64,000 nt of DNA from a virus, in IMG/VR virus record IMGVR_UViG_3300049218_000083, positions 1-64,000 of that record; one strand, given 5' to 3'. The notes below the pieces were generated by a model, which saw nothing but the letters and a program-made list of their open reading frames with translations, was not told the DNA's origin and ran no database searches. Positions within the stretch are counted from its first letter, which is position 1. Each line of letters starts with the position of its first letter. Of this stretch, positions 3,070-15,740 are shown piece by piece. A program made the translations under genes and the position numbers.

Positions 3070-3077
3070 TATTTATC
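3070..3077 (-). promoter_or_regulatory. Late-type promoter box GATAAATA
   Basis: Read on the minus strand this is GATAAATA, one base from the T4 late consensus TATAAATA. It sits at the end of the glycosyltransferase gene. The next ATG begins 6 nt after the box, so the transcript would be almost leaderless. Confidence 0.55.
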
Positions 3078-4071
3078 AGGCAATTCTAATGCCTGCTTTG
3101 GCTAACCTTTCTTCCATCTTCTTCATCGCGTTGTACATGATGTCCATTTGCTTATCAAACCGAGCACCCAGGGAAATGCGTGCTAACTCCGGCCACTGTA
3201 TTACATCCTCTTCAAAACCGAAGTGTATTCCTTCCTGAGCGGAATCAATTTGCGGATCATTTCCGCTGGGCGGCATTTCTGTGTTGTATTTGACACCCCA
3301 AGTGCGCAGCATTTCTTTAGTGACCTGAAACTTGCTTTTCTGCAACTCGTGATGAATGTAGTTCAGCTGGAAAAACCGACGGACTGGGCCAAGCTCGCCT
3401 GGATTGCGGTTCATCTTGATGCTGGCTCGGACAAACTGTCGATAATGGGATAGAACAGCCTTGCTGGTGATCTGTTCAACCGACCGCACTGGAAAGTGGT
3501 TGATTCGTACACCACAATCTGCGTCTGGCACGAATTTTCCATCCGGGCCAAACCAAGCATGGTTGCCGTGGTTGATCTTAACGTGCGGCGCATGTGCTTT
3601 GCTGCAGATGGCCTTGTACGTCACGTGATTCTCGCTCGCCAGTGGCGCGAAGCAACTGTACAATGGATTCGGTTTCTCGAAATAATTGATGTCAGTCGGG
3701 ACCCAGGATCTCCACATAGCTTTCGGCGTCATGTGTGGAGGAACAGTCATTAGCTTGGCTATGATGTCTTCTTTTGTTTCGTCTACAAACTCGTCAGCGT
3801 CTAGGAACATGAACCAGTCATAGAGTCCCCATGCGTTTACTGAGCGGAGTGCTGCAGTCGTCAACCCATCCTGGTTGTACGTGTTATCCCCATCGAATGT
3901 TGTGGTGATAGGGTAGCCAGCAGCCTTCAGTTTGTCGAGGATCGTTTGGGTTTCATCAACGCTGTTGTTGTTGATGATGTACATATGGTCAAAAACGCGG
4001 CAGTTGATCTTGACGAACAACTCGATGATGTCACATTCGTCTCTGACCTGCGCGATACATGCTATTCTCAT
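3076..4071 (-). CDS. Glycosyltransferase, family 2-like
   Basis: 331 aa from the ATG at 4071. The N-terminus (MRIACIAQVRDECDIIELF) and the metal-binding FLDADEF motif (about residues 89-95) are typical of GT-A glycosyltransferases that move a sugar from a nucleotide-sugar donor. The acceptor is unknown: virion protein, phage DNA or host surface glycan. A frame-open extension to 4146 exists, but it starts inside the gp23 terminator hairpin, so the later start is preferred. No strong ribosome site is visible. It sits between capsid and recombination genes. Confidence 0.75.
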   Translation of the reverse strand: MRIACIAQVRDECDIIELFVKINCRVFDHMYIINNNSVDETQTILDKLKAAGYPITTTFDGDNTYNQDGLTTAALRSVNAWGLYDWFMFLDADEFVDETKEDIIAKLMTVPPHMTPKAMWRSWVPTDINYFEKPNPLYSCFAPLASENHVTYKAICSKAHAPHVKINHGNHAWFGPDGKFVPDADCGVRINHFPVRSVEQITSKAVLSHYRQFVRASIKMNRNPGELGPVRRFFQLNYIHHELQKSKFQVTKEMLRTWGVKYNTEMPPSGNDPQIDSAQEGIHFGFEEDVIQWPELARISLGARFDKQMDIMYNAMKKMEERLAKAGIRIA

Positions 4072-4134
4072 GTTTCGATATACAGGATGCGGCTGTAGAT
4101 GGTATAGATCATGGTTTGTATATAGCGTGGATGC

Positions 4135-4157
4135 AAAAAGAGCCACCGAAGTGGCTC
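4135..4157 (-). terminator. Intrinsic terminator after gp23
   Basis: On the minus strand GAGCCAC, loop TTCG, GTGGCTC, followed by TTTTT. A 7-bp perfect stem with a stable UUCG tetraloop and a U-run, 28 nt past the gp23 stop. A classic rho-independent terminator. Confidence 0.9.
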
Positions 4158-6859: not shown

Positions 6860-7501
6860 TTAGAGCTTGGAGAAGTAATTCTCCATGATCTTAAGTGCGA
6901 CTTCTTCAAGCTGGGCCTGCTTAGCACCCTTGATTTCCTTGTACATCTCATTCACATCAGCTTCTACAATGATTCCATTGTTCCAAATCCATTCCCTACC
7001 TTCCATCATTCCATTGACGAAAGCATCCGGTGCAGACGGATCAGAAACGACATCACCTGCTGTAGCAAGGTGATAGTCATCCTGAACCATATTGACTCCG
7101 TTCTGTTCCTTCAGAGAGCCCATACCACGAGATGAAACACCGATGGCAACGTTATCGTCGATCAGGTTCTTGACGATGTTACCGAATGGAGTTGAAAGCA
7201 CTTTCGCGCGACCAATCCAGTTGTTACCGTCTTCCTTCAGAGAAAGGATCTTGTGTGACGCACGATCGTAATTGATGGTTGGTGAAGCTGGGTGACCAAG
7301 TTCACCGACTGCTCGGTTGGTGTTGATCATTTCCTTGACATAGCGATTGACTTCGCGCTCAAGGATAGCTTTCGGATAGACACGCCCATTACGATTCTTT
7401 AGTTCAGACTGCAAGAACACACCTTCGATGAAGTAGTTCTTACCTGTAGCAGTCTGCTCAACAAGAGTCTTGGATTCTGTGTATTCTACAATCAGTTTCA
7501 T
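6860..7501 (-). CDS. 21: Prohead core protease gp21
   Basis: 213 aa, matching T4 gp21 (212 aa). It has an ELGHPASP segment with the likely catalytic His at residue 70 and a GVSSRGMGS segment with the likely catalytic Ser at 123-124, both typical of the gp21 serine protease family. It digests the scaffold and trims head proteins at Leu/Ile-x-Glu sites before DNA packaging. It lies directly upstream of gp22, as in T4. Confidence 0.92.
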   Translation of the reverse strand: MKLIVEYTESKTLVEQTATGKNYFIEGVFLQSELKNRNGRVYPKAILEREVNRYVKEMINTNRAVGELGHPASPTINYDRASHKILSLKEDGNNWIGRAKVLSTPFGNIVKNLIDDNVAIGVSSRGMGSLKEQNGVNMVQDDYHLATAGDVVSDPSAPDAFVNGMMEGREWIWNNGIIVEADVNEMYKEIKGAKQAQLEEVALKIMENYFSKL

Positions 7502-7511
7502 TCTTTTCTCT

Positions 7512-8204
7512 TTACTTTATCGCGTATGAGCGATGCTTACCTGCTGGCCATTGCTTCATTTCGCTGGAGTGTTTAGCAACATGAGTTACAACACCACGCT
7601 CACCGCTCTTCATGCTTGGGTGAATACCATGACGCCATTGCGCATTGGATTGTCTGTGGTGAGTTCCTGGGAACTTGGTTGAACGGTTGCCGTCGTCATG
7701 AAGATGAACATGGTCACCTGGCTTCATGTCGTGACCACCAGCGATGACGGAAACGTGTTCTTTGTCACCATAGGTGCCGTCTTTTCTCTTGCCATAGGTG
7801 TGGTGGACAACGCGAGCATATCCAGAACCACCATGACTGTCCCAAGAAGCTGTGTGTTCATGCTTCTCTGGTTTTTGTGTGTTAATCTTACCAGCACTAA
7901 CCAATGGAAGATGGTGTGGGTAGTTTTGATCGTTTTCATTTATGATTGAAATAGATTCAAAAATTGCTGAATCGTCACCGTCTTCATCAACATTTGGGAA
8001 GAAGAATGATTCAGTTTTTGGCTCTTCTGGCTTGTCATGAACTTTGATTTCTGCCCAGTGGTGAGAACTCTTCTTAACACTGGCACCACCACGGAAATCT
8101 TTGACTTTCGCGCCAACAGCAAGTGGCTTGCCAGACTTTTCGTGAACAAGCTTGGTTCGACCTTCGCGGTCAGACTCGTTCAAGTACTCTTTGAATACAC
8201 CCAT
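7512..8204 (-). CDS. Probable internal head protein
   Basis: 230 aa, no recognised family. It starts MGVFKEYLNES, resembling the short capsid-targeting peptide of T4 internal proteins, with a possible gp21 cleavage site after LNE at residue 10. A basic linker follows, then an acidic stretch and a His/Gly-rich C-terminal half with SHHW, GGHDMKPGDH and HLHDDG. Its place between gp21 and the gp68-like gene, and the shared N-terminal pattern with its neighbours, suggest it is packaged inside the head. Function is inference. Confidence 0.5.
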   Translation of the reverse strand: MGVFKEYLNESDREGRTKLVHEKSGKPLAVGAKVKDFRGGASVKKSSHHWAEIKVHDKPEEPKTESFFFPNVDEDGDDSAIFESISIINENDQNYPHHLPLVSAGKINTQKPEKHEHTASWDSHGGSGYARVVHHTYGKRKDGTYGDKEHVSVIAGGHDMKPGDHVHLHDDGNRSTKFPGTHHRQSNAQWRHGIHPSMKSGERGVVTHVAKHSSEMKQWPAGKHRSYAIK

Positions 8205-8205
8205 C

Positions 8206-8484
8206 TTACACCCCCATTGCGTGTCTACGACGCAAACTTCTTTTTCTCTTCAACAATGTTCGAGCCATCTTTGCTCGACGCTTGAACTTACCCTTTCGTG
8301 CTCCACGCTTTCTGTGAAGCTTTTCTTGTGCACTCATGCGCACCAGTCTTCCGCCACGTATCGTGAAGCCTTTCACGTTACTGACTTTTACGTTGCGCTG
8401 TACCTTACCATTCTTGATCCTAAGACGAATCCTTTTGATACGACCAGCAGTTTTCTCACTAAGATACTGCTTGAAGGATTTCAT
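8206..8484 (-). CDS. 68: Basic prohead core protein, gp68-like
   Basis: 92 aa and extremely basic (Lys/Arg-rich throughout, especially the last 40 residues), Cys-free. It starts MKSFKQYLSEK, a probable core-targeting peptide with a cleavable LSE. T4 gp68 is a small basic prohead core protein located between genes 67 and 21, and position and composition match. The identity is inferred from context, not from clear similarity. Confidence 0.6.
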   Translation of the reverse strand: MKSFKQYLSEKTAGRIKRIRLRIKNGKVQRNVKVSNVKGFTIRGGRLVRMSAQEKLHRKRGARKGKFKRRAKMARTLLKRKRSLRRRHAMGV

Positions 8485-8485
8485 T

Positions 8486-8974
8486 TTATGGATGGAATGT
8501 GTTATCGTTGTACTGGGTGTAGACGTTAGCGTATCCGCCGCCAGCGTCGCCTTCCTTGTTCAACTTAAGGATCAGCGTAAATCCGTCGCCTGGAATAGCA
8601 CCTTGAATAGTAAGTCCAAGATCACCACCCAAACCGTGATTCAAATTCGCAGTGTTTGCTGCAAGTGGGTTTGGCATGTACGCTTCAAACACGCTTGAAG
8701 TTTTACCACCAACAACAGCCAAGTCACTGTTTCCGCCAGCGCCAGTTCCAACCCATTGAAGGAGTGCATAGCCATTGGCAAAACCAGCAGCATACTGAAT
8801 AGAAATACAAGACAACACGCATGGCTTAGAGCTGTTTGCATAAGCGAGAGTGTTTGCCTGAATGATCTGAGTGTTACTGTTGGTTGCAGCCGTGTAATAG
8901 CCAACGATCTTAACAACAGTGCGATCGCCTGTATCGACCAAAATTTGTACTTCAGGGACGTTAGGTGTTGACAT
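8486..8974 (-). CDS. Small beta-rich virion protein, unknown
   Basis: 162 aa. Rich in Gly, Asn, Ala and Thr with no charged helices, starting MSTPNVPEVQIL. The composition resembles capsid-surface or cement proteins. It lies within the head cluster between probable internal proteins, but lacks the basic N-terminal targeting peptide they share, so it may be an outer decoration protein. No family recognised. Confidence 0.45.
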   Translation of the reverse strand: MSTPNVPEVQILVDTGDRTVVKIVGYYTAATNSNTQIIQANTLAYANSSKPCVLSCISIQYAAGFANGYALLQWVGTGAGGNSDLAVVGGKTSSVFEAYMPNPLAANTANLNHGLGGDLGLTIQGAIPGDGFTLILKLNKEGDAGGGYANVYTQYNDNTFHP

Positions 8975-8983
8975 CGTATCCTC

Positions 8984-10153
8984 TTACTTCAAATGGGTCG
9001 ACACAAATTTGGCGACCTTGCTCAATCCTGCTGGGCCACTGTTGATAAGAGACTCAATCTTCTTCTTATTCTGTGGATTTACCTTACTATGTAGCTTCAT
9101 GATCATTGCTGCTGTAGGATGATCAACCATGCCTGAAGAGCCGTTCTTGTAACGCACCTGAGCTGGATGACGTGTTTTCGTAATTGCGTGCAGCGTGTGA
9201 ATCGTTGCTTCATGTACAACATCTTCACCGAGCTCGGCAGCCGCATGCTTGTACTTGGCATAATGATGGTTTGCGCGACCTTCGTCACCTTCGATGTGAT
9301 GGCCGGCAGCTGACTTGAAATGATTTAGAGCTTTCTCACCATAACGCTGACGGACGACTTTTTCAATGTGACGATGTGGGCGGAATGATGGATCTTTCAG
9401 ATTGCGCGGACTTTGTAGATGCTTGACGTACATACCGAATAGGTTGTCGGAAGTATCTTCATTGACGCCAATCAGTGCCATGTAGTCTTCGTACACGTCA
9501 TCGATGATGTCATCATTCCAGTCTGATACGTCGTCTCCATTCTCTTCTAGTTCAGAACCGAGCCAGTTGTAAAGAGCGATGTCCAATTCACCCTTGTTAC
9601 CTTCGCCAACCAAACGCTTGTATGCCGCCTGTATAACGTCGATCTTGCGCTGACGGGGAATATCGTCGAACCCTTCTGTAAGAGTGTCTAGGTTCTCACC
9701 GTGCTGCTTGATATGATGCTGAAGCGTCTTGACAGACAGCTGATGCTTGTTAGCAGCCTTGATGTGTGCAGCTAGATTGCGAGGGTATGCCTTTGGGTCC
9801 GCAGCAGTGATGTCAGCCTTTTGCTTCGTTTTGGTCATAGCTTTACGAGTCGTTTCGACATCGCGTTCAAGGGTACGACGATCGGTGCGGATCTTCTTCA
9901 GTTCCGGACTCATTGCTTCATCAAGTGATTCTGTGAAATTGCCTACAGTGCTCAGCAAACGCTTTCCTAATGTTTCTGGGTTGTATGGAATCGCAACCTC
10001 AAGATCAAGGTTGTCATTGCGATAGGTTGCGACACGCTGGTTGTTTGGAAACAGACGAATCGCCTTTCTACGCATTGTAAGAACTGTAGGTGGATCCTGG
10101 AATGCAGGTGACTCCGTCAGTTCTCGAGTTCGTAGTTCTTTCAAAGTTTTCAT
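8984..10153 (-). CDS. Probable internal head protein with LxE cleavage sites
   Basis: 389 aa, no known family. N-terminus MKTLKELRTRELTES contains LTE near residue 13, and a further LDEA occurs near residue 77; both fit the gp21 protease rule. Charged, helical and rich in Lys, His and Glu. The C-terminal third has His clusters (HHIEG, NHHYAKYKHAAAE). The next gene upstream overlaps by one base. Probably packaged with the DNA. Confidence 0.5.
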   Translation of the reverse strand: MKTLKELRTRELTESPAFQDPPTVLTMRRKAIRLFPNNQRVATYRNDNLDLEVAIPYNPETLGKRLLSTVGNFTESLDEAMSPELKKIRTDRRTLERDVETTRKAMTKTKQKADITAADPKAYPRNLAAHIKAANKHQLSVKTLQHHIKQHGENLDTLTEGFDDIPRQRKIDVIQAAYKRLVGEGNKGELDIALYNWLGSELEENGDDVSDWNDDIIDDVYEDYMALIGVNEDTSDNLFGMYVKHLQSPRNLKDPSFRPHRHIEKVVRQRYGEKALNHFKSAAGHHIEGDEGRANHHYAKYKHAAAELGEDVVHEATIHTLHAITKTRHPAQVRYKNGSSGMVDHPTAAMIMKLHSKVNPQNKKKIESLINSGPAGLSKVAKFVSTHLK

Positions 10154-11859
10154 TAGTATGCTGTGTCCAATGCCTTGGTGGTGTGTGGGTGACCCTTGAC
10201 CGGACCACCCTCATCAGCCTCTTGTCCCATTTTGTGCAACTCAGCGTGCTTACCAGAGTGACTCTTCACCAACTCTTTCTCAGCTTTGTGGTACAAAGCA
10301 TGGTGCTTGGTGTTCTTGTGAAGGAAGTCAGCAGCATCGTGACGCTGTCCACCACTGTTAGCAGAAAAGGCTCCATGTAGGACTGAAGTCAAATGCGGGA
10401 ACTTCTCAGCTGCTTCTGTGATAACTTCTTCCTTGGTCAGTCTGTCGGTTGCTTTTTCGATACCGTTGATGCGCTTTACAGCTTTCTTCCAATGAGCGCG
10501 AGATGGTGTTCCACGTTCAAGGTTTTGACCAGCAGTATGTGCATGAGCTGCTGCGCCGTTCAAACCACCAGATGCCTTCTTGATGTAACGGCCAAGCAAT
10601 CCCTTTGACAATTCATTGACTACAGCTTCATCCTGACGGTGGGACTTGTCCCAATGAGCTGCATCTGTGTGACGACTTTCGTCTTCTTCACGTTCCTTCT
10701 TTTCTTTTGCCAAGCGAGCAACCAATGCTGCGTGGATTCCCCTTGATACAGTTTGACCAGCACGGAAATACGCACGAGAACCAGCGCGGAATGTTCCACG
10801 ACGTGCTTCGTCAAGCTCTGTTTCCTCACCAACGTGACCGAAGTTTTGAGCGAAGGTTGCCATCTTAGCAGCATGACCACCAGCAGCCTTTCCCTTTGCT
10901 ATGTCAGCAGCGGTAATCGGTGCGTTTGGGTCCTTGTGTAGCCACGCATGGAACGCACCTTTCTTCACATGAATCGTTGATTCTTCAACCTGTGGAAGAA
11001 CAGATTCATCACGACGTTGGTTTTTCTCTTTGTCTTTTCGCTTCTGGTTGAAACGTTCAGCACGCTTGTCCTTGAAGGTTTTCTTGATAGAAGCAGTTTC
11101 GTGGTTTGGGTTGTTGCCTGATTCGTTCATTGTATCTTCCTTAATGGAGTGAATAGCACCCTTACTAAGTGTCGTGTTAAAACTCCCACGACTGTGCTTT
11201 CCATATGGCTTCTCACCCTTCACGTGAGCAACGTGGTGATCTTTGAATATGGTGTCATTGTGAACAGCATATCCATGTCGCGCCGCATCAGCTTTCCAAG
11301 CATCTAGATCAGTATGCTTCTTTGTGTGGTGAAGGATTTCGTCAGATGGATCTTCGACACCCTCTTTCACAGCATGAACACCTTCACGGTTGGCCCACTG
11401 CTTAGCATGAGAATGCGCTTCTTCTTTATCGTCAGTATGATAGTCAGCCTTCTCTTGATGGACGCCATCTACGAAGTGCTTTACACGGTGTTCTTCCCAT
11501 TCCTTATCACGGTACACTTTCGCAGTGCGGTTGCCGTTGGTGTGGGTAGCTGTAAGCTTCAATGCTTCGTCAAGTGTTTCTTCCTTGACGTTGTGGTTTT
11601 TCACATGCTGATGATCTTCATAACTAAAGCGATGGTGTTCACCAGTTTTATGATCACGAATAACGTAATGATCATTGGCAACGTGGTGAAGATGACCTTC
11701 CTTCTTATCACCATGTTCTGGGTGATAGTAGTCCATGGTGCTTACCGCAAATCCGCGTGCCTTGTCTTTCTTGTTCGCAGCATGGATTCGATGAATCGTT
11801 CCCGTATCGAACCCGATATGCTTTGTCGCAAGATCGCGATATGAAGCTTCAGTCAACAT
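10153..11859 (-). CDS. Large His-rich internal head protein, probably multi-processed
   Basis: 568 aa. It begins MLTEAS and carries further LDEA sequences (about residues 97 and 355), all fitting Leu-x-Glu sites for the head protease. His content is very high, and several short domains look like independent modules separated by the LxE sites, for example one with GAFHAWLHKD. The pattern suggests a precursor cut into peptides that stay in the capsid, as T4 gp22 and gp67 are. No enzymatic motif seen. Confidence 0.5.
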   Translation of the reverse strand: MLTEASYRDLATKHIGFDTGTIHRIHAANKKDKARGFAVSTMDYYHPEHGDKKEGHLHHVANDHYVIRDHKTGEHHRFSYEDHQHVKNHNVKEETLDEALKLTATHTNGNRTAKVYRDKEWEEHRVKHFVDGVHQEKADYHTDDKEEAHSHAKQWANREGVHAVKEGVEDPSDEILHHTKKHTDLDAWKADAARHGYAVHNDTIFKDHHVAHVKGEKPYGKHSRGSFNTTLSKGAIHSIKEDTMNESGNNPNHETASIKKTFKDKRAERFNQKRKDKEKNQRRDESVLPQVEESTIHVKKGAFHAWLHKDPNAPITAADIAKGKAAGGHAAKMATFAQNFGHVGEETELDEARRGTFRAGSRAYFRAGQTVSRGIHAALVARLAKEKKEREEDESRHTDAAHWDKSHRQDEAVVNELSKGLLGRYIKKASGGLNGAAAHAHTAGQNLERGTPSRAHWKKAVKRINGIEKATDRLTKEEVITEAAEKFPHLTSVLHGAFSANSGGQRHDAADFLHKNTKHHALYHKAEKELVKSHSGKHAELHKMGQEADEGGPVKGHPHTTKALDTAY

Positions 11860-11877
11860 GGAGAAGACTCCTGGAAA

Positions 11878-12390
11878 TTAAGACATCTTCCCAAGGTGCT
11901 TCACGTCAACACCCTTGCTACCGTGGTGGACTGCAAACTTGTGCATTCCGCCAGATCCAGCAACATAGTAGTGCATTTCATGCTTGTCAGCATCAATGCC
12001 ACCATGGTCCTTGCTGATATGGTAATGTGGAGTGTGGAACTGCTGGAAAGTACCACGAGTGCTTACTGGCTCATGTTGGCCGGTTGCAGCAGCGTGAACA
12101 GCGTGTGCCATATGCTCAACAGAGCCTGGAGTGATGACCTTTTCGTCAACGACTTCAGTGTCTTCTACGACCTTCTTTCCTGGCATCGTTGGCTTACCCT
12201 TGATCTTTGGTCTCCAAGAGATATGAGGAAGCTTTGGGTCATGAATACCACCAGCCTCGTTGATAAGAGTTGAAGCGACTTCGATCTTGGTCTCAGCAAG
12301 GATAGCATCTACCTTTGCTTCGACAGCTTCGTTGAACTTCTGCTTGAAGCCGATAGCATCTTTGTTTTGAGCGGATTGTACTAGTGACAT
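11878..12390 (-). CDS. 67: Prohead core protein gp67-like
   Basis: 170 aa. The first 45 residues (SLVQSAQNKDAIGFKQKFNEA and following) align in pattern with the N-terminus of T4 gp67: a helix with a short acid/amide turn, then FxEA, then a basic helix ending in IEVA. T4 gp67 is a scaffold core protein directly downstream of portal gene 20, as here. The remaining 120 residues are extra compared with T4 (80 aa) and are Gly/His-rich, like the neighbouring internal proteins. Confidence 0.72.
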   Translation of the reverse strand: MSLVQSAQNKDAIGFKQKFNEAVEAKVDAILAETKIEVASTLINEAGGIHDPKLPHISWRPKIKGKPTMPGKKVVEDTEVVDEKVITPGSVEHMAHAVHAAATGQHEPVSTRGTFQQFHTPHYHISKDHGGIDADKHEMHYYVAGSGGMHKFAVHHGSKGVDVKHLGKMS

Positions 12391-12443: not shown

Positions 12444-14078
12444 TTAGACAAGCTGATTCATTACTCGCTTGTTGAGCTCGCCAGCCTGATCCGTTGGTTG
12501 TTGCTCACCTGGCTTGACTGGACCTGGAGGAGGTGGTGGACCTGGAGGAGCAGCAGAACCAGCCAATGGGCCAGCTTCCTTCTCAATGTCCTTCGCTTCC
12601 TTCTTCATTTGCTTCTCTTCCTTGGCGATTTCAGCTTCGTCCATCATCAGGATGTTTTCCTTGACCCAACGCTCGCTGTAGAAACGACCAATGAAAGGCT
12701 CGACCAATGTCAGCGTGTTCATGCGGTTCGTAATCAACTCGGCTTCCTTCAACTCGGTGAAGTTGTTGTCCTTCACGAAGCGATAGGTGACATCCTGACG
12801 CATCTCAGCCCATTCATCGAGGGTACAGATGCCTTTCAATGTCAACTGACGCTGAAGCAATTCATCGAACAGCATTGAGAAGCGATTACGAAGTTTCTGA
12901 ACGAATTTGTCGAACTTGATTTCGTCACGAGTGATTTCAGCTGGACGACCAAGGTTGAAACCAGAATTTGTTTCAAGACGTGAAATAGGAACGCACAATG
13001 CGCGGTAAAGCTTCTTCTCGAAGTACAATACGGCATCCATGTTGTCAAATCCCTGACCTGATGGCAGCGTGGTAATTTCGGTTGACTTGTCTGGGGTTGA
13101 ACGAGGCATCCAGAAGTCTTCAAGCATAGAGAAATGTTTTCTGTCGTCTCGAATTTCACCAGTTCCAGCATCATATACAAGCTTGTTGCGGTACTTGGTC
13201 ATAATGTCTTTCAAGTACTGTTCAGCCTTTGCTTTTGGCAAACCACCAGTACCGACGTAAAATACACGACGCTCAGGAGCGCGAGAAACCTTGTAGATGA
13301 CAGTTGCGTCTTCGATGAAGCGCAGCTGGTTCATTGGACGGATAGCTTTGTGCAGATAACTCAACACGGTTGACTTGGCTGGGTCGAACAGTCCTGAAGT
13401 CAAGTGAATCACGGAGTCTTGAGACAGTTTCACACCACCAGCAAAGTTGCCGATGATCTGTGGTGACTGAATGCTGTTGTTTACGATCTTCTCATTGTAG
13501 AGATAGAACACTTCGATTTTTGTGATTACATCAATTCCATCAGAATTCTTCTGCTTTGTGATGTTACGGATTTTGCGAATACGACGTGGATCAATGAACG
13601 TCAGCTGTTGGATACCGTCGCGTGGATTTTCAGGATCGATGACAACGTTCCAGTATGCACGACCGTCGACATACCAACGACGGAAAATATCAGGACCATA
13701 TTTGTTGAAGTCAAGAAGCTTGAGAACGTTCTTGAACTCGTCACGAATCATTGTCTTGATTTCATCTTCCTGATCAAGGTCATCGAGGTTGATTTCAACG
13801 CTCTTGCCATGATCGTCGTGGACGATAGCTTCGTTGATGATGTCATCGATAGCGTTTTCCATTTCTGGTTGCATCGCCATCGTGCGATACTTTGATAGGA
13901 GGTCGACTTCGGAACGGTATGTGCCATCAAGGTCAACGTACACCCCATAATGGGCTCCTGAATTGATGTTTATAGCACCATCTTCAAGACTTGGTGATAC
14001 TACACTTTCCGGAACTTCCTTCTCAGTGTCTTGGCGTTTTATTTCGAACCCGAAGAGCTTAATAGAATTTTGTGCCAT
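12444..14078 (-). CDS. 20: Portal vertex protein gp20
   Basis: 544 aa (T4 gp20 is 524). Portal features include an early GAHYGVYVDLD segment, repeated acidic helices, an IDPRRIRKIR stretch, and a long FYVGTGGLPKAKAEQYL region highly typical of gp20. The C-terminus is Pro-rich (PPGPPPPPGP). It forms the dodecameric DNA entry ring at one capsid vertex and binds terminase and neck. It overlaps by one base with the HNH endonuclease gene inserted directly upstream. Confidence 0.95.
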   Translation of the reverse strand: MAQNSIKLFGFEIKRQDTEKEVPESVVSPSLEDGAININSGAHYGVYVDLDGTYRSEVDLLSKYRTMAMQPEMENAIDDIINEAIVHDDHGKSVEINLDDLDQEDEIKTMIRDEFKNVLKLLDFNKYGPDIFRRWYVDGRAYWNVVIDPENPRDGIQQLTFIDPRRIRKIRNITKQKNSDGIDVITKIEVFYLYNEKIVNNSIQSPQIIGNFAGGVKLSQDSVIHLTSGLFDPAKSTVLSYLHKAIRPMNQLRFIEDATVIYKVSRAPERRVFYVGTGGLPKAKAEQYLKDIMTKYRNKLVYDAGTGEIRDDRKHFSMLEDFWMPRSTPDKSTEITTLPSGQGFDNMDAVLYFEKKLYRALCVPISRLETNSGFNLGRPAEITRDEIKFDKFVQKLRNRFSMLFDELLQRQLTLKGICTLDEWAEMRQDVTYRFVKDNNFTELKEAELITNRMNTLTLVEPFIGRFYSERWVKENILMMDEAEIAKEEKQMKKEAKDIEKEAGPLAGSAAPPGPPPPPGPVKPGEQQPTDQAGELNKRVMNQLV

Positions 14079-14599
14079 TACAATCTACTCCACCCATCAG
14101 TGCCAAGTAGGCTACGGATTCGGCTATATGTTTTATCGACCAAATTTCTGCCTCTCTTGTTTGCTCTTACTGGAATCTTACCAGCCAAAGCTTCGGCAGC
14201 TTCACTTACGGAACCAAATGTTCCATACGGAGTATTTATTGCGCAAGCATTGTTGTTGATTCCACCTGTCTGGTTGACGTGTGGACGCTTGCCGCGCATT
14301 GCTTGTTTGTGTGCTTCAGTTTTCGGCTTGGACAGCTTAGCAATCGTCTCAAGAGTATGTTTCATACCCAAGCGATATTTGTGTCCTTTGTTTGCTTTGG
14401 ATACAGCGATCCTTGCTGCCTCTTCATGAGTGATCAACCCAGCGAGTCCTTTCCAGGCAATTTCATCCTGCCACATACCATGTTGCTCAAACAAAACACG
14501 ATGAGCTTCAGCGTGCTGTTCTACCGTTAAATCGACGATATTAGATGGGTCATTTGACCCACCCATATGCTTCGGAATTACATGGTGTTTATGCATCAC
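14078..14599 (-). CDS. HNH homing endonuclease, free-standing
   Basis: 173 aa. Opens with HKHHVIPKHMGGSNDPSNIVDLT and then EQHAEAHRVL, the HNH metal-finger pattern of phage homing endonucleases. The middle has a NUMOD3-like GxKHT stretch and the end a helix-turn-helix-like NTPYGTFGSVSEAAEAL segment (NUMOD1-like). It is wedged between tube and portal genes, consistent with site-specific invasion. Its N-terminus is very similar to the decayed copy at 44591-44740. Confidence 0.85.
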   Translation of the reverse strand: MMHKHHVIPKHMGGSNDPSNIVDLTVEQHAEAHRVLFEQHGMWQDEIAWKGLAGLITHEEAARIAVSKANKGHKYRLGMKHTLETIAKLSKPKTEAHKQAMRGKRPHVNQTGGINNNACAINTPYGTFGSVSEAAEALAGKIPVRANKRGRNLVDKTYSRIRSLLGTDGWSRL

Positions 14600-15305: not shown

Positions 15306-15740
15306 TTAGGCTTTAGCCTTTTCCATCCAGATACGCTTTCCGGTAATTGGATCTTTCTTCCAAGTTTTACCAACTGACGACATCTCTGGATGTTGTTTAT
15401 AGAATTCTCTCATCACATTACCATGGCCCAGTCGACCATTCTTAGCGAAATGATGATTCTCTCTGATATTTAGCTTTGCTTCTTTCGTGTGTCTGTAGTC
15501 GCGAATCTTAGCATTATGCTCTTCTGTATGCCTTCTGCCCAAGTGCCATTGTCTATTTGCTTCAATAGACTCTGGCGAATGCTTTCTTCCATACCAATAG
15601 GAGTCTTGTCCGCTAGGAACAGGAGGTCCTGGTAGTCTTGTTACACCTTCCGGCAATACAATCCTACCACTTACACGCTCATCACAAATTACAATGGGTG
15701 TCAGTTCAACACCCATTACTTTCGCTATGGCTTCATTCAT
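15306..15740 (-). CDS. NUMOD3-type homing endonuclease-like protein
   Basis: 144 aa. The centre holds repeated short DNA-binding modules of the NUMOD3 kind (YGRKHSPESIEANRQWHLG, then GRRHTEEHNAKIRD), usually found in homing endonucleases. The N-terminus (VICDERVSGR, then Pro-rich) has no clear nuclease signature, and the C-terminus has KTWKKDPITGKRIWMEK. It sits exactly between sheath and tube genes with minimal spacing. Probably a homing endonuclease or a derivative lacking part of the catalytic domain. Confidence 0.65.
   Translation of the reverse strand: MNEAIAKVMGVELTPIVICDERVSGRIVLPEGVTRLPGPPVPSGQDSYWYGRKHSPESIEANRQWHLGRRHTEEHNAKIRDYRHTKEAKLNIRENHHFAKNGRLGHGNVMREFYKQHPEMSSVGKTWKKDPITGKRIWMEKAKA

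Follow-up and report, generated by a model that had tools for sequence, protein, structure and literature searches.

The window analysed here is a stretch of 64,000 nucleotides, positions 1 to 64,000 of the 166,743 base IMG/VR virus record IMGVR_UViG_3300049218_000083. Its head genes form a tight block on the minus strand in the order gp20, gp67-like, p568, p389, p162, p92, p230, gp21, gp22 and gp23, and the genes between gp20 and gp21 include a putative polyprotein of head cargo. gp20, gp21, gp22 and gp23 were identified through Pfam and PHROGs. Possession of a gp21-type protease is one mark of T4 internal protein/capsid-targeting sequence (IP/CTS) systems, and the phage encodes one. Its major capsid protein contains FLTE/T at residue 56, the position expected for T4-type cleavage. 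The features at the centre of the analysis are as follows.

12444-14078, minus strand: gp20 (Pfam and PHROGs).
11878-12390, minus strand: gp67-like prohead core protein, with 45 N-terminal residues containing an LINE site, then VVDE and a His-rich C-terminal module of 87 amino acids (aa) (weak profile, position).
10153-11859, minus strand: p568, the putative cargo polyprotein, approximately eight modules separated by [LIVM]xE sites (open reading frame (ORF), site and module comparison).
11566-11847, minus strand: p568 module 1, residues 5-98, no relative found, ending VKEETLDE (sites, module comparison).
11362-11565, minus strand: p568 module 2, residues 99-166, phrog_7884 family (profile, alignment, predicted fold).
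11122-11361, minus strand: p568 module 3, residues 167-246, common to L002, ending IKEDTMNE (module comparison).
10981-11121, minus strand: p568 module 4, residues 247-293, SGNNPNH, also in L082 and the C-terminus of L096 p768 (module comparison).
10807-10980, minus strand: p568 module 5, residues 294-351, KGAFH (module comparison).
10612-10806, minus strand: p568 module 6, residues 352-416, no relative found, ending VVNE (sites, module comparison).
10414-10611, minus strand: p568 module 7, residues 417-482, LSK-type (LSK pattern scan).
10156-10413, minus strand: p568 module 8, residues 483-568, no relative found (module comparison).
8984-10153, minus strand: p389, a conserved core-like protein with inserted modules and the leader MKTLKELRTRELTE, ending LTE (ORF, relatives).
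9674-9916, minus strand: p389 inserted module, residues 80-160, AMSPELKK, in L002 and L095 and not found in L082, L083, L096 or L109 (module comparison).
9458-9673, minus strand: p389 inserted stretch, residues 161-232, in L082 and L095 and not found in the short L109 form (module comparison).
8987-9208, minus strand: p389 conserved C-terminal module, residues 316-389, ATIH, after VVHE (module comparison).
6860-7501, minus strand: gp21-type prohead protease (Peptidase_S77, E 2e-38), the presumed cutter (Pfam, PHROGs).

The gap between gp20 and gp21 measured 338-1360 bp in 64 of the 65 fetched relatives with both genes and 5513 bp in L002, the nearest relative. The window and L096 each had a gap of about 4.9 kb. 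A preliminary description of this DNA had reported four extra long genes between gp21 and gp67. All were found where it had placed them and the expansion is real, but p92 is a conserved core protein of only 92 aa and p162, which holds no site, had been overlooked in the same interval. No cargo modules were found in the remainder of the 166.7 kb genome. The T4 late promoter TATAAATA was found 0 times in the window, with 0.7 occurrences expected by chance.

p568, p389 and the C-terminus of the gp67-like protein are mosaics of modules of approximately 45-95 aa, and the module order differs among relatives. The comparison covered the relatives L002 (p762), L093, L095 (p396), L096 (p768), L083 (p437), L082 and L109 together with Caulobacter phage Cr30 (p682) and Synechococcus phage S-SKS1 (p682). 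The modules are joined at [LIVM]xE sites which are often doubled in the form xE-(E/D)T-[LIV](D/N)E. The KGAFH module, fifth in p568, opens the protein in L002 and L095, takes second place in L096 and is joined to gp67 in L109, and it also occurs in short stand-alone ORFs of L097-L106. Modules were fused to gp67 in L145 and cultured BUCT-ZZ01 as well. In BUCT-ZZ01 the fusion of an LSK module to a gp67-like protein lies between gp20 and gp21, which ties the modules to the prohead core. A gp67 module of L083 has a second copy, 64% identical, in p437 on that contig. The p389 backbone is conserved, with a short form of 240 aa in L109 in which the inserts of the window were not found. Whole p568 as the query found no relative among viral contigs, and no named phage gave a full-length match to it; p389 and p230 had no match in named phages. 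Twenty-three shared module families were catalogued. Their fragments were cut at the sites, so the catalogue illustrates the site rule and is no test of it. The main feature missed by the preliminary description is that p568 and p389 have the look of polyproteins, with cut sites where one exchangeable module meets the next.

LxE sites had been put forward earlier as evidence for cleavage. Counts of the literal [LI]xE motif did not bear this out, being no higher than in shuffled sequence for p568 (5 versus 3.75, p = 0.3) or p389 (6 versus 3.7, p = 0.15), and a better test of the cargo claim was therefore needed. The excess over chance lies in where the [LIVM]xE sites fall and in how often they are doubled; they mark the module borders. 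Homology breakpoints were defined as local alignment ends in 24 proteins; 65 of 137 lay within 4 aa of an [LIVM]xE site compared to 25.3 expected, bearing in mind that shared junction motifs may favour alignment ends there and that related proteins are not independent. The null was built by rotating the site positions within each protein, and the maximum over 2000 rotations was 48. These figures are from the version with stricter settings. A lenient BLAST run, diluted by low-complexity matches, gave a weaker result (60 of 213 within 4 aa versus 38.6 expected). All 19 distinct copies of LSK-type modules directly followed an [LIVM]xE site, against a background of 2.2% per position; the scan pattern demands nothing upstream, and as its signature was drawn from known copies very divergent ones may escape it. 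Sites doubled at a spacing of 4-7 aa numbered three in p568 (VKE-ETLDE, IKE-DTMNE and VGE-ETELDE; 0.29 expected), eight in L002 (0.54 expected) and nine in L096 (0.58 expected). A 640 aa protein at L154:2021-3943 was also observed, with several tandem LSK-type modules, each after an xE site, and a phrog_7884 module last.

Module 2 of p568 matched the phrog_7884 profile with an E value of 3.3e-16 over profile positions 8-64 of 66 and could also be aligned with Pseudomonas phage proteins. This module is common in phage contigs. It is a free-standing gene in the Autographiviridae Pseudomonas phages Eir4, Achelous and PspYZU08, where it belongs to a group of small genes preceding that for RNA polymerase, being the first gene in PspYZU08. 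Genes in this position in T7 are the first to be transcribed and include those for host take-over and anti-restriction. By analogy the phrog_7884 protein may have a role of this type. An anti-defence role has its best lead in the homologues of this one module, early genes that stand alone in T7-like Pseudomonas phages. Several free-standing copies have a Met 14-17 aa before the anchor, and most embedded copies have a site 14-18 aa before it (21 in L093, L095 and L121). Since these offsets agree, a cut at the embedded site would give approximately the free-standing N-terminus. AlphaFold predicted module 2 as a three-strand plus helix domain starting at the predicted cut, with a predicted local distance difference test score (pLDDT) of about 93 for residues 1-60, falling to 48 in the last eight residues, a disordered tail. 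The best viral fold matches were uncharacterised phage proteins. AcrF1 was considered as a homologue. It ranked second among the weak PDB fold matches from Foldseek (E 0.36, template modelling score 0.56), but the profile E value was 0.12 and the hidden Markov model score was below that of many shuffles. With a weak fold match and negative profile tests the homology is unsupported and is a lead only.

The occurrence of sites beside this module was surveyed in 42 records, with the window added to the counts. Of the 14 records with Peptidase_S77 or T4 portal, 13 had the embedded phrog_7884 module shortly after an [LIVM]xE site, compared to 0 of the 24 records with neither marker (Fisher p = 3e-9, the records not being phylogenetically independent). 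The positives were L120, L121, L122, L125, L127, L128, L139, L145, L153, L159, L002, L095 and the window. Left out of the comparison were L126, L132, L137, L154 and L186, fragments with a site in which both markers were missing. Because many records are fragments, a missing S77 is not proof of absence. The 24 marker-negative records carry the module inside two other classes of large proteins, none with a site. These are a GQFKP class (L129, L136, L140, L162 and others) and a KTGxRP class (L123, L142, L163 and others), and no T4-type protease was found in the contigs of either. Use of the module without cleavage therefore exists, and the window proteins could likewise be uncleaved multidomain proteins which act whole, similar to polyvalent proteins, their xE motifs being a linker habit inherited with the modules. 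The tracking of sites with the T4-type protease or portal and their doubling at junctions make this improbable.

The location of the genes suggests an alternative in which they form an enlarged prohead core, a scaffold filler that gp21 cuts only to clear or compact the core and whose fragments have no role in the host. They lie in the core cluster between gp20 and gp21, with gp67 and p389 as conserved backbones, and in T4 both gp22 and gp67 are broken down to small fragments by cleavage (PMC9026906, PMC5694885). However, the modules are diverse, swapped between genes and free-standing in unrelated phages, one of them as an early gene of T7-like phages. The single module that was modelled is a well folded domain, and in Cr30, P-TIM68 and S-SKS1 similar polyproteins are encoded away from the core cluster. 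Core filler is accordingly considered unlikely, although it is the more plausible of the two alternatives given so far.

Virion data from cultured phages bear on packaging. In T4 a leader of 10 residues is enough for packaging and is removed by gp21 (PMC9026906). Mass spectrometry of virions of the T4-like cyanophage S-CREM2 detected a S-adenosylmethionine (SAM) hydrolase, a kinase, a cytidylyltransferase and other proteins, and contamination of the preparation could not be excluded according to its authors (PMC10665884). Leader-like starts were found in S-CREM2 gp6 (MKDFDSFLEE), gp13 (MKDLHSFLTE), gp14 (VKRFDAFLTE) and gp154 (MKNFSSFLTE). Those of the virion-detected proteins were MKDFDSFLEE for the SAM hydrolase, VKRFDAFLTE for the kinase and MKNFSSFLTE for the cytidylyltransferase. 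In the two stretches read, a leader was present in 4 of 17 detected proteins compared to 1 of 31 undetected proteins (p = 0.05); the strict pattern requires an initial M, and gp14, with a GTG start, was added by eye. The virion-detected gp160 of S-CREM2 is modular with xE sites, and two of its modules (80% and 66% identical) are in swapped order relative to a P-TIM68 protein of 1006 aa which also holds an LSK module. Cyanophage cytidylyltransferases carry leaders of the T4-like capsid-targeting type, MKKFSDFLSE (L118:780-1949) and MKNFSSFLTE (L202:8209-9069), which may explain their detection in virions. S-CREM2 gp12 (L203:4205-6814) is a virion-detected Cas9-like nuclease with the stretch RFASFMAE near its N-terminus. 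As this stretch is leader-like, gp12 may be a packaged nuclease.

The remaining genes of the interval are as follows.

8486-8974, minus strand: p162, beta-rich, no site, conserved in the clade (relatives, predicted model).
8206-8484, minus strand: p92, conserved highly basic core protein in a gp68-like position, leader MKSFKQYLSE, 92 aa (profile, relatives).
7512-8204, minus strand: p230, leader MGVFKEYLNE, His-rich (ORF, leader scan, composition).

An N-terminal leader of 10-19 residues ending in a gp21 site is present in p230, p92 and p389. The preliminary description had given all four of its genes a basic peptide followed by LxE. This is correct for p230 (LNE), p92 (LSE) and p389 (LTE) but not for p568, which has MLTE only. 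In p568 MLTE forms residues 1-4, with AGGAG 8 bases before the ATG and an in-frame stop seven codons upstream of it, and p568 is thus without a leader peptide. Having only a site and no leader, p568 was not assigned to the T4-type internal proteins, although it may work in a similar way. The reading frames of gp67 and p568 coincide in the window, and readthrough from the first into the second was considered. It was rejected because in L002, L095 and L096 the two genes are in different frames and because p568 is preceded by an AGGAG of its own. A genome-wide scan for the strict FxxYLxE-type leader gave only p92 and p230 plus two chance matches. p92 is 67-76% identical in relatives and, as a conserved basic core protein, is not extra cargo. 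The match of the gp67-like protein to the phrog_1064 'prohead' profile is weak (E 0.0017) and covers residues 3-44 only, and its place directly after gp20 fits. The VKDFRG stretch of p230 resembles by eye part of L153 p901.

The predicted model of p162 was poor (pLDDT 62) and gave no reliable fold match. Proteins of this type, with no site or leader, were also seen between the p389-type gene and p92 at L002:8846-9343, L096:13187-13687 and L109:9992-10456. Cultured BUCT-ZZ01 has a similar-looking protein of 133 aa in this interval (L115:7166-7567). The p162-type protein is possibly a head structural or decoration protein.

Three minus strand genes which adjoin head and tail genes, at 14078-14599, 15306-15740 and 1926-2111, were by eye two HNH-like and one GIY-YIG-like. 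Homing endonucleases frequently sit beside such head and tail genes. A glycosyltransferase-like gene, also by eye, is located at 3076-4146 (minus strand) directly downstream of the major capsid gene.

The proteins had been described as His-rich, which holds for p568 (10%), p230 (10%) and the gp67-like protein (9%) but not for p92 (2%). The high His and Lys content and the basic LSK tails would suit modules that aid packaging by condensing DNA or balancing charge, with no action on the host. The net charge of p568 is merely +8 over 568 aa, and one module has free-standing homologues that, as early genes, are made long before packaging. A role as packaging aids is therefore the least probable of the explanations considered.

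On balance the interval probably encodes gp21-cleaved head cargo in polyprotein form. The architecture, comparative genomics and the virion proteomics of a related phage agree with the earlier idea of internal head cargo cut by gp21, while the raw LxE counts and leaders on which it was based were weak grounds. p568, the p389 inserts and the gp67-like C-terminus would be made together with the head operon and would enter the prohead core via leaders or core-bound modules. Cleavage by the gp21-type protease would follow, after [LIVM]xE where modules meet, and a set of separate mini-proteins of 45-95 aa would stay in the mature head. These would pass into the host along with the DNA, where they would act ahead of any phage gene expression in host take-over or counter-defence. 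Of these steps packaging of the modules in the head and cleavage at the module junctions are both likely, packaging slightly more so. Injection of the separate modules is somewhat more probable than not, and a counter-defence or take-over function is plausible at a little under even chances.

Several points weigh against this reading. The core proteins gp22 and gp67 are likewise cleaved many times simply so that the core is cleared, and the presence of sites does not by itself prove useful products. The virion proteomics at hand come from S-CREM2, which is outside this phage and its clade. p568 itself, unlike its orthologues in L002, L095 and L096, has no capsid-targeting leader, and this is the chief weakness of the reading for this phage. 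The 516 kb record L133 is S77-positive, yet no site lies within 21 aa of its module. The GQFKP and KTGxRP classes hold phrog_7884 without an xE site, and location inside a large protein therefore does not demand cleavage. Finally, no module matched a defence or enzyme family with confidence, and p568, p389, p230 and their orthologues had no confident Pfam or PADLOC match.

Cargo polyproteins of this kind would resemble the T4 internal proteins IPI, IPII, IPIII and Alt in the gp21-type protease, in the LxE leaders of p230, p92, p389 and the L002, L095 and L096 orthologues of p568, and in being small cargo proteins presumably ejected with the DNA. T4 has one cargo protein per gene, whereas the window strings many modules per gene with sites that are often doubled, and p568 has no leader. 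Polyvalent proteins of phages and conjugative elements also carry many domains per polypeptide delivered with DNA, and their authors likened them to polyproteins and proposed release by embedded peptidase domains (PMC5512222). The window proteins differ in having no recognisable enzymatic domains or embedded peptidase; release would be in trans by the prohead protease at sites between very small modules. The inner head (ejection) proteins of SPN3US and phiKZ are likewise large internal cargo with a gp21-related protease and sometimes several sites (PMC5694885, PMC10052503), but the cuts there remove long N-terminal propeptides from one mature protein while the window sites separate modules along the chain. 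With the small phrog_7884 proteins of Eir4, Achelous and PspYZU08 the likeness is family membership of module 2 by profile and alignment. There the protein is a separate early gene upstream of RNA polymerase and in the window it is a polyprotein module in the head cluster. No description of a cargo polyprotein of tailed phages cut by the prohead protease was found in the open-licence PubMed Central (PMC) literature, bioRxiv and subscription journals being outside the search. Cargo of this form would belong to the known kind of head-delivered internal proteins.

It is tentatively suggested that T4-type phages, jumbo and cyanobacterial phages included, share a pool of mini-effectors which are made late as one chain, packed, cut by the maturation protease and co-injected. 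They would do the work that falls to early genes in other phages, and the xE junction would be a general plug-in site for cargo exchange by recombination. If the proposal is true, a single gene delivers many distinct small proteins from the phage head, released by the maturation protease. The sequence rule of module borders at xE sites, often doubled, in the presence of a gp21-type protease would then find unannotated injected proteins in T4-like and jumbo phages. It would also offer a route to candidate counter-defence proteins which act before gene expression.

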